In this document: piece by piece, positions 4,382 through 31,904 of the stretch
Layout: each line of letters starts with the position of its first letter
How positions within the stretch are numbered: the first letter of the stretch is position 1
Assembly: GCA_022865215.1 (NCBI GenBank)
Contig: JALIDP010000008.1
Coordinates: 1 to 32,832 of the forward strand
DNA from: Candidatus Nanohalarchaeota archaeon QJJ-7
GTDB lineage: Archaea; Nanohalarchaeota; Nanosalinia; Nanosalinales; Nanohalalkaliarchaeaceae
Length of the DNA: 32,832 nucleotides
Direction: 5' to 3'
Position numbers and translations under genes: made by a program
The notes under the pieces: generated by a model
Seen by the model: only the letters and a program-made list of their open reading frames with translations
What the model was told of the DNA's origin: nothing
The model's database searches: none

Positions 4382-6088
4382 CTACTTTACCGCATCCTGT
4401 AGAACGTCCACATATATCTCGAACGCTGCGACAGACACATCAAGACCCCAGCTATCTCTTACTTCCTCGTTTATCTCTCCTATTATACCTGCTTCCTCAC
4501 CGTCCAGAACGATATTGCCGCACCTCTTGTCCCTGAAGCTTCCATGAGAAAGTTCTTCAACCTCGAACTCTAAGCCGAGCTCCTTCGCGACTGACTGTAG
4601 AACCCCGCGGACCTCGGAGAAACCGGTTTCAGAACCTGCGGATACGTAGGCGAGCTGGTAGGAATCATCTGCTCCTGTATGCGAATGATCCTCTAGCTCC
4701 GAGACCTTGCCGACCTCGAACAACTTCTGAGGGTAACGGTTGTGCTGGTTGTTGCCAAGCACCTCCATAAGAGATGGGAGGACCCAGTTCCTGACCACGG
4801 TGTATTCCTCGGTCAGTGGGTTCGCCATCGAGACAACTTCTTCTTTCTCTTTATCCATCCTATCGAACAGCTTCTCGCGGTTGGACAGGATGAAGGTCAT
4901 CGTTTCCTGGGCTCCTGTACCGACCATAAGTTCGCGTAAACTGTCGCGGAAGACTGTCCTGTCGTCCTCTCCTCCGATGGTCGAGACCTCCGGGATCTCC
5001 TCCTCCACGTTACCGTATCCATAACCGATGACGACGTCCTCTATAACATCGTAAGGGTGCATGACGTCGGCCCTGTAGGCAGGAACCGTGACGAGGAGCT
5101 TGTCTCCTTCGATCTCCACACCGTAAAGCATCTTCTCCAGCTGCTCTTTGATACCTTCCTCTGAAAGGTTATCGAGCCCGGAAACTTCTCTCACGTATTC
5201 CGGGTCTATCTCTCTCAGGTCGCCGGTCATGTCTGGCATTCTCTCTCCCCCCACTTCCACCGATTCGATGGTTCCGCCGCGCTCGTGCAGCGCCGCAACA
5301 AGGATGTTCAGCGCGGTCTCCACCTCTCTTCTTGAAGTCCCTGTAACATCGAGGAAGATGTCGTCTGTGTCATCGTCCACTTCAGTCAGCTCGCCGTTTA
5401 TGATCGGGGGCATGGAAAGGACTTCTCCTTCAGAATCCTGCAGTAACGGATACCGTTCCTCGTCCTCCAGGATCCATCCGTACTTCTTCCCTTTATCGTG
5501 CTCCTCCAGGATATCTCCCAGATTCATCTCTTCATCTCTGCCGAGCGGTACGAACGAGTCTTCCGAAGGATCCGCACCCCTGTAGGTTATCGGGGGTTCC
5601 AGAGGTCCCAGGTCGTGAAGCCCTATCGCTATCTTCTTCCTCTTTCTACCGTAAGTCTCGGTCAGCTTCTCCTGAAGCTGTATTATACTGTTAAGCTCGT
5701 CCTCCTTCAGGTCCAGGTTCTTTATCCTGGCGCATGCGATATGCTTCCTGACGTTCTTCACGGAGCTATCCACTTCTACTTCGATATCTCCGGTCTCCAC
5801 AGGATAATCGACCGCACCGGTTTCAATCTCGAAGAAGCCGCGCAACGCACGGGCGATACCCTCGACGGATAGAAGGTCGGGCCGGTTAGGTTCGACTTCC
5901 ACCTCTATCTTGTCCTCTTCCGAGCTCGTGGAACCGGAGGTTCCATTCGATCGAGCGGAATCTCCCGATTCCGTCGAGTCTTCGAACAGGATTCCGAGCA
6001 TCGAACCTTCCTCTTCCAGCTTTTCCACGCCCAGTTCCTCCCCGACCAGTTCTTCCAGGTGAGGTTTCGATATCTCGACTACAGCCAT
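4382..6088 (-). CDS. pheT: Phenylalanyl-tRNA synthetase beta subunit (with 62-bp in-frame insertion at 5925-5986)
   Basis: B3/4-like region, EVEPNRPDLLSVEGIARALRGFF, VPAYRADVMHPYDVIEDVVIGYGYGNVE, PLTEEYTVVRNWVLPSLMEVLGNNQHN; 1 nt downstream of pheS. Confidence 0.96.
   Translation of the reverse strand: MAVVEISKPHLEELVGEELGVEKLEEEGSMLGILFEDSTESGDSARSNGTSGSTSSEEDKIEVEVEPNRPDLLSVEGIARALRGFFEIETGAVDYPVETGDIEVEVDSSVKNVRKHIACARIKNLDLKEDELNSIIQLQEKLTETYGRKRKKIAIGLHDLGPLEPPITYRGADPSEDSFVPLGRDEEMNLGDILEEHDKGKKYGWILEDEERYPLLQDSEGEVLSMPPIINGELTEVDDDTDDIFLDVTGTSRREVETALNILVAALHERGGTIESVEVGGERMPDMTGDLREIDPEYVREVSGLDNLSEEGIKEQLEKMLYGVEIEGDKLLVTVPAYRADVMHPYDVIEDVVIGYGYGNVEEEIPEVSTIGGEDDRTVFRDSLRELMVGTGAQETMTFILSNREKLFDRMDKEKEEVVSMANPLTEEYTVVRNWVLPSLMEVLGNNQHNRYPQKLFEVGKVSELEDHSHTGADDSYQLAYVSAGSETGFSEVRGVLQSVAKELGLEFEVEELSHGSFRDKRCGNIVLDGEEAGIIGEINEEVRDSWGLDVSVAAFEIYVDVLQDAVK
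5925..5986 (-). mobile_element. Candidate in-frame palindromic insertion element (copy A, in pheT)
   Basis: ctcgtggaaccggaggttccattcgatcgagcggaatctcccgattccgtcgagtcttcgaa; 51/62 identical without gaps to 31561-31622; perfect stems TGGAACC-gga-GGTTCCA and CGGAATC-tccc-GATTCCG; encodes FEDSTESGDSARSNGTSGSTS. Confidence 0.6.
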
Positions 6089-27524: not shown

Positions 27525-27595
27525 GCTCTCTGTACAGGAATTCTCCTACATGCTACACTTTTATAAGACGGCTGCTCCTATAAGTGAACAGGTAG

Positions 27596-27943
27596 ATGGT
27601 CCAGACTATGGAGACAGTGGCGGTCGTTGTGATTCTTGCAGCTCTCGCTTACATCCTCTACATGTGGAACCGCAGGAAGGACCAGATCCACTGCCCTAAC
27701 TGCGGCGAGCGCATCGACCTCTACGCGGACGAATGTCCGCACTGTGGATACCAGAAGGGAGAAGTGCTCAAAGAACGTCTGGAAGGAGAGTTCGAAGAGG
27801 AATCTGAGGAGACAGGAGGAGATACAGGGGAAGATGCAGGAGGAGATACCGAGGGAGGGGATGGAGAGTTCGTCTGTGACGAGTGCGGCGATTCTTTCGA
27901 CTCGGATCAGGGTCTCAACATCCACAAAGGTATGAAGCACTGA
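27596..27943 (+). CDS. Small membrane-anchored protein with zinc ribbon and C2H2-type zinc finger
   Basis: N-terminal TM METVAVVVILAALAYILYMWNRR, IHCPNCGERIDLYADECPHCGY zinc ribbon, acidic linker, FVCDECGDSFDSDQGLNIHKGMKH C2H2 finger. Confidence 0.8.
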   Translation: MVQTMETVAVVVILAALAYILYMWNRRKDQIHCPNCGERIDLYADECPHCGYQKGEVLKERLEGEFEEESEETGGDTGEDAGGDTEGGDGEFVCDECGDSFDSDQGLNIHKGMKH

Positions 27944-27960
27944 GGTGCTTCTACACATCA

Positions 27961-28062
27961 CACTTCTTCGAAGAGCTCGGGTATGAAACACTGACGTGTT
28001 TCTGTTCCTCACACTTCTTCGAAGAGCTCGGGTATGAAACACTGACGTGTTTCTGTTCCTCA
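27961..28062 (+). repeat. Tandem direct repeat, two identical 51-bp units, with degenerate flanking units (about 27910-27960 and 28063-28113)
   Basis: 27961-28011 and 28012-28062 both read cacttcttcgaagagctcgggtatgaaacactgacgtgtttctgttcctca (51/51 identical). Partial similarity upstream (tatgaagcactgaggtgcttctacacatca) and downstream (aatctctgcgagaatttcgggtacgaaacattgg). Confidence 0.95.
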
Positions 28063-28150
28063 AATCTCTGCGAGAATTTCGGGTACGAAACATTGGATCT
28101 CTGGCAGGCTTCAGACAGGTTTTTATTCTTGCGAGCCACTCCAGTATTAT

Positions 28151-29561: not shown

Positions 29562-31904
29562 TCACTTATCGCCCATGTAGTCCAGGATGTTCTCCTTATC
29601 GAACACGTTCTCCTGACCGACCTGCTCCTTCAGTTTCTCAGCCGTCCGCTTCCCGAGAAGGTTCTTCAGGTGGTTGAAAGAAGCGTTCCGGATGTCAGAA
29701 GCGCTTGTGATCCCGTCATCGTGAAGCCTCCTTGCCCTCACCCTCCCGATATCCCGGAACCTCACCAGCGACAGGAGCTCCTCTTTTATACCGTGCTTCA
29801 TGCGCGTCCTCAACCTCTTCACCTCTTCACGGGCGTCATCCCACTCCTCCAGAGTGCAGAGTTCAGCCGATGCGTACAGTAACCAGTCCGCCTGCTCCAC
29901 CTTGGAACGGATCCCTCCCGGGGTCACACCGTACCGGTCCATCAACTCGTCCTCCTCTTCCTCCTCTATCCATTCCTTCAGCATCATAGCAGTCTTCAGA
30001 CTCTTCAGGAACTGGTTGTATCCCATGTCCCATGGGTCCGGTGGCTCCTCGAAGAGTTCTTCCTCTACCTCGGCCAGCATATCCTCGACCTCTGCCTTCT
30101 CGTTCTTGCCGATCCTCAGTCGCGGCTTCATCTCCACGGTCTGGGACAGCGAGTGGAGGAAAGCGATGTCTTCAGCACCTTCTATATCAGCCTGTTCCAG
30201 GTCTTCCAGAAGGTGGTGAGCGGTATAGGGATCGATGTAGAGCTCTGCGACCCGCTTCCCGACCCCAGTCGGTTCCAGCTTGCCTTCATCTTCGTCCAGG
30301 AACCCGTACTCCTCCAGGTTCTCAACCACCTTCTCCAGCTTCTCCTCCACCTCAGACGAGTCCCCGTACTGGTGGGCGTAGAAGGTCTGTTCGAAGAAAC
30401 CAGTTAGTTCATCAAAACTGGACGCGAACCTTGTAGCCACCAGTCCTAGAGCGTGCATGCGAAGTACAGGTTCCACCGCCAGCTTAGAGTAGATGTTCTC
30501 CGTCTCTCCAAGAACGTAACGGTCCCGGATGTCCTCCTTGTTCCCTTTCTCCGAGGCGATGGATATGGCGTGTCCCTCATCGTGGTGCTCTGGTCTCCCA
30601 GCTCTCCCGACCATCTGCTTGTATTCCAGGGTTGGGATAAACTGCAGCCCGTTGTCTGTGTAACGCTTCACGTCCCTCACTATTATGCGGTAGGCAGGGA
30701 GGGAGACCCCCATAGCGAGCGTTGGAGTCGCAGAGATACCTTTTATCAACCCGTCTCTGAAGTTCTCCTCCAGGAGCTTTCTCTGCTCCGCAAGAAGACC
30801 GGCGTGGTGGAAGGCCGTTCCTTTCTCCACACAGTCCGCCAGCCTCCGGCACTGCTCCGTCGGAGAACCGAGAACGTTCCTCACCCTTGATGCGAGCTCC
30901 TCCAGCTCTTTCTCCTCATCACGCGAGAGCTCGTCCTCCACAACTTTGCCCGCCTTCTCGGCCTCTGATTCCGCGCTCTTCCTGCTCCTGACGAATGTTA
31001 TAGCTTGATGTCCGCGCGACAGCGTGTCATCCAGAACGTTCAGTGTTCCTCTCCCGTATCCCTGCGCGATGGAGACGTTCTCCGCACCCTCCTCTGATTC
31101 TTCCTCGCTCCGTTCCTCCTCCAGCTTATCCTTACCGGTCACGAAACCGTCGTTGTTCGTTCCATTTGAACTCTCATCTCCATCGTAGAACGTGATCTCG
31201 CCGTCCAGGTAGATCCCCTCCTTCAGGGTCACCGGTCGATAATCTGATTCGACAAGCGTCGAGTCGAGCCAGTCCGCCATCTCCTCCGAGTTGTTGATGG
31301 TCGCGGAGAGCCCGAGCAACTGGAAGTCCATCATCTCTCTCAGACGCGTCAGAGTGACTTCGAGGGTCGGACCTCTGCCCTCTGAGTTGAGGAGATGGAT
31401 CTCGTCCACCACAACGAGATCGACCTGTGATATCCAGGCAGGATTGTGCCGCAGGACCGCGTCCAGCTTCTCCACGGTCATGATTATCAGGTCCTTCGTC
31501 TCGAGATAGCCCGCGGAAGAATCCCGGTCACCTATCGACAGCGCCACCTCCGAGTCTGTACTCGTGGACCCTGAGGCTCCACTCGATCGATCGGACTCTT
31601 CCGAGTCCGCCGAGCCCTCGAAGAATTCCTGGTAGTCGCGGTACTTCTCAGAACCCAGAGCTTTCAGAGGGACGAGATAGAGTGCCTTCCTGTCGGTCTC
31701 CTCGAGAAGCCTGGAGATAGCCATGGATGCTATCAGGGTCTTTCCTGAGGCCGTGGGTGAGGAGATGACCATACTCTCACCTTCCAGCAATCCGTTCTCC
31801 ACCGCCTCGACCTGAGGCGGGTTCAGATCCTCTATACCTTTATCGAGAAACTTCTGGACCGCGTGGCCGGGAACTCCTTCCGATTCAAGTCCCTCGACTT
31901 TCAT
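29562..31904 (-). CDS. Ski2-like DNA/RNA helicase, Hel308-type (with 62-bp in-frame insertion at 31561-31622)
   Basis: SPTASGKTLIASMAI (motif I), VPLKALGSEKYRDY (Ia), VVDEIHLL (DEIH), LGLSATINNSEEMADWL, QMVGRAGRP (motif VI), C-terminal HhH-like FRDIGRVRARRLHDDGI. Confidence 0.93.
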   Translation of the reverse strand: MKVEGLESEGVPGHAVQKFLDKGIEDLNPPQVEAVENGLLEGESMVISSPTASGKTLIASMAISRLLEETDRKALYLVPLKALGSEKYRDYQEFFEGSADSEESDRSSGASGSTSTDSEVALSIGDRDSSAGYLETKDLIIMTVEKLDAVLRHNPAWISQVDLVVVDEIHLLNSEGRGPTLEVTLTRLREMMDFQLLGLSATINNSEEMADWLDSTLVESDYRPVTLKEGIYLDGEITFYDGDESSNGTNNDGFVTGKDKLEEERSEEESEEGAENVSIAQGYGRGTLNVLDDTLSRGHQAITFVRSRKSAESEAEKAGKVVEDELSRDEEKELEELASRVRNVLGSPTEQCRRLADCVEKGTAFHHAGLLAEQRKLLEENFRDGLIKGISATPTLAMGVSLPAYRIIVRDVKRYTDNGLQFIPTLEYKQMVGRAGRPEHHDEGHAISIASEKGNKEDIRDRYVLGETENIYSKLAVEPVLRMHALGLVATRFASSFDELTGFFEQTFYAHQYGDSSEVEEKLEKVVENLEEYGFLDEDEGKLEPTGVGKRVAELYIDPYTAHHLLEDLEQADIEGAEDIAFLHSLSQTVEMKPRLRIGKNEKAEVEDMLAEVEEELFEEPPDPWDMGYNQFLKSLKTAMMLKEWIEEEEEDELMDRYGVTPGGIRSKVEQADWLLYASAELCTLEEWDDAREEVKRLRTRMKHGIKEELLSLVRFRDIGRVRARRLHDDGITSASDIRNASFNHLKNLLGKRTAEKLKEQVGQENVFDKENILDYMGDK
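31561..31622 (-). mobile_element. Candidate in-frame palindromic insertion element (copy B, in hel308-like gene)
   Basis: ctcgtggaccctgaggctccactcgatcgatcggactcttccgagtccgccgagccctcgaa; same orientation and reading frame relative to host gene as copy A; stem CGGACTC-ttcc-GAGTCCG; encodes FEGSADSEESDRSSGASGSTS. Confidence 0.6.

Follow-up and report, generated by a model that had tools for sequence, protein, structure and literature searches.

Palindromic 54-nt sequences within unrelated protein genes of nanohaloarchaea: a probable new family of small, mobile, translated elements

Rickettsia palindromic elements (RPEs) are short palindromic repeats of about 100-150 bp with long stem-loops, which have entered numerous unrelated conserved genes without disturbing the frame, at solvent-exposed loops of the encoded proteins, and are also found in intergenic regions and RNA genes; PheT itself is one rickettsial RPE host (PMC3767692; PMC2229807). 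Protein-coding palindromic repeats are also on record, in the descriptions given by citing papers, for Wolbachia, a small-genome symbiont (Wolbachia palindromic elements, as cited in PMC2996958), and for the archaeon Methanocaldococcus jannaschii (Suyama et al. 2005, as cited in PMC2229807 and PMC2996958). Archaeal and bacterial MITEs and REP sequences are likewise small, non-autonomous and dispersed, and have complementary ends (PMC10969869).

The current study concerns a window of 32,832 nt, which is contig 33 of the genome of Candidatus Nanohalarchaeota archaeon QJJ-7 (G000; 753 kb, 34 contigs, 78% complete). The strongest repeat in the self-comparison of the window (E 1.5e-10; runner-up 5e-4) joins two protein genes: minus-strand positions 5986..5925 and 31622..31561 are identical at 51 of 62 positions in a gap-free alignment, and this match, as an earlier note on the same DNA had claimed, lies in unrelated hosts, namely pheT (TIGR00471, 522 bits) and a gene encoding a Hel308-type helicase. 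The 62-bp unit proposed in that note holds as a repeat but not in its size. The mobile unit measures 54 nt (5925-5978 and 31561-31614), with boundaries set by trimming to the part that is missing in orthologs, and the remaining 8 nt upstream (TTYRANNN) are host sequence. The features of the two copies are as follows.

4382..6088, minus strand: pheT host gene, 568 aa, with the insert at about residues 37-55
5925..5978, minus strand: 54-nt element in pheT, CTCGACGGAATC..GATTCCG-CTCGATCGAA-TGGAACC..GGTTCCA-CGAG; covariance model (CM R1) score 81 bits; folding z as single-stranded DNA -4.5
5956..5973, minus strand: hairpin 1 of the pheT copy, CGGAATC GGGA GATTCCG; each of the 7 coding copies retains all 7 pairs
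5929..5945, minus strand: hairpin 2 of the pheT copy, TGGAACC TCC GGTTCCA
5979..5986, minus strand: host target TTCGAAGA directly upstream of the pheT element, Phe-Glu-Asp codons
29562..31904, minus strand: Hel308-type helicase host gene, 780 aa; insert absent in the G001 ortholog (same family, 68% identical) and in the other alignable orthologs
31561..31614, minus strand: 54-nt element in the hel308-like gene; CM R1 81.9 bits; folding z as single-stranded DNA -3.1
31615..31622, minus strand: host target TTCGAGGG of the hel308-like gene, Phe-Glu-Gly; the G007 ortholog reads TTT GAA GGA and has no insert

Elsewhere in the window, two 65-nt direct repeats (27929-27993 and 28031-28095; n=2, 74% identical) lie in or beside a minus-strand ORF at 27578-28093.

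A plain DNA search with the 62-mer as query was too insensitive for this genome, as it did not recover even the known hel308 copy; a covariance model was therefore built from four copies, and a second model from seven, with the proviso that copies too degenerate for such a model may be missed. The search for further copies, which had been set beforehand as a test capable of refuting the element, found them in the genome itself and in relatives. In G000, the first model matched copies on contigs 5, 4 and 1, and on contig 31 a partial relative; of the three additional 54-nt copies, msrB and nreA each hold one and the third is intergenic, which brings the canonical copies to a low total of five (pheT, hel308, msrB, nreA and intergenic) in a genome that is 78% complete. 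The intergenic copy, on contig 1, is the eighth 54-nt copy of our set and is flanked by putative rps24e and putative rps27ae genes, names that we presume from reading the sequence rather than from a family search. The seven coding copies comprise the four of G000, those in pheT and msrB of "Ca. Nanohalalkaliarchaeum" (G001, same family) and one in G003, a third nanohaloarchaeon, where the host gene is merA-like. Matches at E <= 1e-4 occur in only five of the 28 genomes of the order, mainly the two of this family, and the second model gave a similar picture over 80 genomes, with no match at E <= 0.001 in any of the 52 outside the order. An exact-pattern scan of 84,980 genomes returned 20 matches, three of them in Ca. 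Nanohalalkaliarchaeum and none in records titled Rickettsia; the others are scattered singles, which we take for chance (rough expectation about 4). The same scan of viral contigs found none.

Comparison with orthologs, which the earlier note had proposed, shows that distant relatives lack the segment in all five hosts checked (pheT, hel308, nreA, msrB and the merA-like gene), with a gap of 18-19 residues exactly at the insert. In MsrB, for instance, relatives read GHVF[DE]DGP.PTG, with TTY GAN at the target in their DNA, whereas the G000 protein reads GHVFED, then 18 residues, then GSDPTG; removal of the 54 nt gives back the ancestral protein. Joining of the flanks brings msrB, merA and pheT back to the length of their protein families, and hel308 and nreA close to it. 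The two genera have the inserts of pheT and msrB in common, with only the one same-family genome sharing them; the hel308, nreA and merA inserts are each confined to one genome, G001 carrying hel308 without the insert and nreA not being found in G001. The pheT insert occupies the same site in both family members, yet matches its ortholog at 41/54 positions, which is no closer than to other copies; going by the sequences, the site may have received either an old insertion or repeated insertions at one spot.

The 54-nt unit has the architecture CTCG-hairpin 1-CTCGATCGAG-hairpin 2-CGAG, in which the ends are short and complementary (CTCG...CGAG) and the linker between the two hairpins is itself palindromic. 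The seven clear coding copies, spread over five unrelated proteins, share a length of exactly 54 nt. In this set, pairing extends to 100% of the cells of hairpin 1 and to 84% of those of hairpin 2, and the proposed covariation test was positive: 8 of the 14 stem pairs show double-sided changes (18 cells), a score reached by 0 of 500 shuffles, and not one of the 90 paired cells is a G-U pair. The perfect stem with its compensatory pair, which had been read from the two window copies, is present, and both of these copies outperform shuffled sequences when folded as DNA (z -4.5 and -3.1), as do 8/8 of the 54-nt copies when folded as single-stranded DNA (z -2.8 to -5.4). The hairpins are also stable when folded as RNA.

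Each of the seven coding copies follows TTYRANNN, after codon position 2 and behind Phe-[Glu/Asp/Asn]. The 8 nt upstream are assigned to the host because orthologs with empty sites carry TTYGAN there, as seen in msrB, in many nreA genes and in one hel308. TTYRA stands at the target offset in 0.5% of coding positions in window genes, so that finding it at all five independent sites greatly exceeds what chance would give, though the motif was spotted post hoc. The codon phase is the same in both window copies, as claimed; it is shared among the coding copies because the target itself lies mostly in Phe phase (65 of the 88 TTYRA occurrences in the window). The claim of a common orientation stands less firmly, because the element is nearly symmetric: reverse complementation slightly improves the fit of the G001 pheT copy to several others. 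The used sense frame (+1) is open in 7/7 coding copies, and the other two sense frames contain stops in some; as 54 nt amount to 18 codons, the host proteins would therefore be made with an 18-residue loop. In the nreA and G001 pheT copies, the loop of hairpin 1 is 1 nt shorter, but 1 additional nt close to the 3' end makes up for it, and this retention of both 54 nt and frame argues for translation. In the same two copies the linker is read in another frame, as LDR rather than TRS; it is therefore the DNA, not the peptide, that is kept. No target-site duplication is visible by eye at the flanks of the seven coding copies.

The inserted peptides are 37% Ser, followed by Thr, Glu, Gly and Asp. 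An AlphaFold model of PheT (19 sequences, mean pLDDT 86) gives pLDDT < 50 at residues 38-58, between strands 33-36 and 60-65, and the PheT insert is thus predicted to be a disordered surface loop between two strands.

Weaker relatives occur within tRNA introns and beside tRNA genes. On contig 31, ARAGORN places a tRNA-Ser(TGA) with a 315-nt intron that holds a related double hairpin, and similar intron copies occur in tRNA-Thr of G001 and tRNA-Gly of G025; in G001 and G003, relatives with a single recognisable hairpin stand behind short duplicates of the 5' ends of tRNAs, immediately upstream of the tRNA genes. The loci L120 (2430-2625), L122 (2380-2640) and L124 (2450-2587) of G001 and L127 (2450-2720) of G003, which are located at tRNA genes or upstream of them, contain at least one copy of the initial ~15 nt of a tRNA, and every such copy is followed by an element-like hairpin and then by the complement of the tRNA fragment. 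Rfam gave no match, either in the window or at the tRNA-intron locus.

Several other palindromic sequences were observed. A second, longer and imperfect palindrome of ~75 nt (..TCGCTCCGCTC..GAGTCCA.ACGGATTCGAGCGAGTGAAACGAGCGAGAATGGA..) occurs at G000:C31:15300-15500 (L115), G000:C29:18664 (L166) and G000:C7:98 (L165), inside the same tRNA-Ser intron, elsewhere and, in part, directly behind the 3' end of a tRNA. In a PrpD-like gene of G001 (L121 562-720), a second double hairpin is apparently nested, in frame, in the linker of the element (~105 nt in total), and at L167 ~1500 (G000:C30:32172) hairpins are nested in the loop of a larger hairpin, which suggests repeated insertion of palindromes into palindromes. 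A degenerate copy in opposite sense lies in an RsmF/NSUN-like methyltransferase gene of G008. A weak element-like double hairpin at L117 2522-2579 (G000:C22:46121) stands at the start of a large ORF resembling the DNA polymerase II large subunit, of which it may form a new N-terminus, and L125 holds a weak model match in a gene resembling IleRS.

We propose, with considerable confidence, that these sequences form a new family of very short, non-autonomous, mobile and translated palindromic elements of nanohaloarchaea, which work like RPEs. From presence and absence among orthologs and from the dispersed sites, we infer that the element moves. The element would enter genes behind TTYRANNN, almost always at a Phe-Glu/Asp codon pair, after codon position 2, and would also settle in intergenic gaps and tRNA introns. 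Movement would take place at the DNA level, with a folded strand being excised or copied; the element would be translated in place, its 18-residue Ser/Thr/Asp/Glu-rich loop would be tolerated at the protein surface, and host selection would retain only the harmless sites. REPs are tied to Y1 (RAYT) transposases, and a Y1 (IS200/REP-type) transposase was considered as the mover and rejected, as a search for Y1_Tnp (PF01797) drew a blank in each of the order's 28 genomes, with control genomes positive. A tentative alternative, which we hold to be unlikely, is a self-templating hairpin element without any dedicated transposase: the folded single DNA strand would pair through its TCGA linker with TTCGA targets, its stem arms would be recopied from each other, and the tRNA introns and tRNA-flanking hairpins would serve as a reservoir. 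Such recopying of the arms would explain why only perfect Watson-Crick double changes, and no G-U pairs, are seen.

The hairpins could instead be kept for an action as RNA, as translation-slowing or RNase-processing signals in the mRNAs, with mobility being secondary. Double changes do preserve both hairpins in the coding copies, and the DNA of the msrB insert is more conserved than its flanks (synonymous codon changes 2/16 vs 39/82, Fisher p 0.012), a difference that fits either DNA constraint or an arrival younger than the split of the genes. However, the host genes share no common function or pathway, most orthologs lack the insertion, the same structure is present in non-coding copies, and the lack of G-U among the paired cells favours selection or copying at the DNA level, which makes this explanation very unlikely.

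A further possibility is that the 54 nt are archaeal introns, cut from the mRNA by the tRNA splicing endonuclease at a bulge-helix-bulge. Archaeal introns of this type are known from tRNAs and from the cbf5 pre-mRNA, and the presence of related hairpins inside tRNA introns, as well as the stability of the element's hairpins as RNA, would agree with it. We nevertheless consider it highly improbable: a bulge-helix-bulge at a constant offset from the element ends is absent in the seven coding copies, and matches to the motif are about as common there as in shuffled sequences, in a scan that caught only 1/3 of the tRNA-intron controls; the constant 54 nt, the open frame and the offsetting indels are not needed by a spliced intron, which requires neither a multiple of three nor an open frame; and in the tRNA introns the element is just a part of the intron. 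A protein loop of ancient common origin, or convergence on Ser-rich coding of low complexity, with no mobility, would suit the Ser content of the peptide and the insert at one place in both pheT genes of the family, but is left with next to no probability by the unrelated host proteins, in which DNA is more alike than peptide, by the covarying stems, by the 1-nt-shifted copies, which differ in their reading frame over one and the same linker DNA, by the copies that lie in an intergenic gap or in tRNA introns, and by the precise empty sites of orthologs lacking exactly these 18-19 residues.

Returning to the mobile, translated family that we favour, it shows three of the properties by which protein-coding palindromic elements are recognised, as it occurs in several unrelated genes of one genome, as a frame-keeping insertion relative to orthologs and, judged by the PheT model only, in an unstructured loop. 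The analogy to RPEs drawn in the earlier note is apt, since both insert in frame as palindromes into unrelated genes and include PheT among their hosts. By description, the nanohaloarchaeal element differs in having 54 nt, roughly half the RPE size, two short hairpins, a fixed length and phase, a TTYRANNN target and archaeal hosts, and by host range and architecture it is not a member of the RPE family. The accompanying statement that no archaeal equivalent was known is wrong, given the coding palindromic repeats that citing papers attribute to M. jannaschii; as those papers describe them, these are likewise archaeal, palindromic and fused into protein genes, and belong to another phylum. The Wolbachia elements, as cited, are bacterial, whereas those described here are archaeal. 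MITEs typically have transposon ends and target duplications, in contrast to the nanohaloarchaeal copies, at which no duplication is visible, and the REP system has a Y1 transposase as partner, which this order lacks. We found no report of the present 54-nt family in the literature searched; the family appears to be new and is unusually small.

The harmless entry of mobile DNA into essential genes is a rare route to new protein segments, described chiefly for symbiotic bacteria and on one occasion for a methanogen. The compact family reported here, whose hosts are symbiotic dwarf archaea, combines precise filled and empty sites with a single fixed length and a recognisable target, and offers a clean case for studying how such elements move, and a test ground for whether small symbiotic genomes favour them. 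It also warns against taking Ser-rich loops of nanohaloarchaeal proteins for salt adaptations, since they may instead be parasitic DNA.
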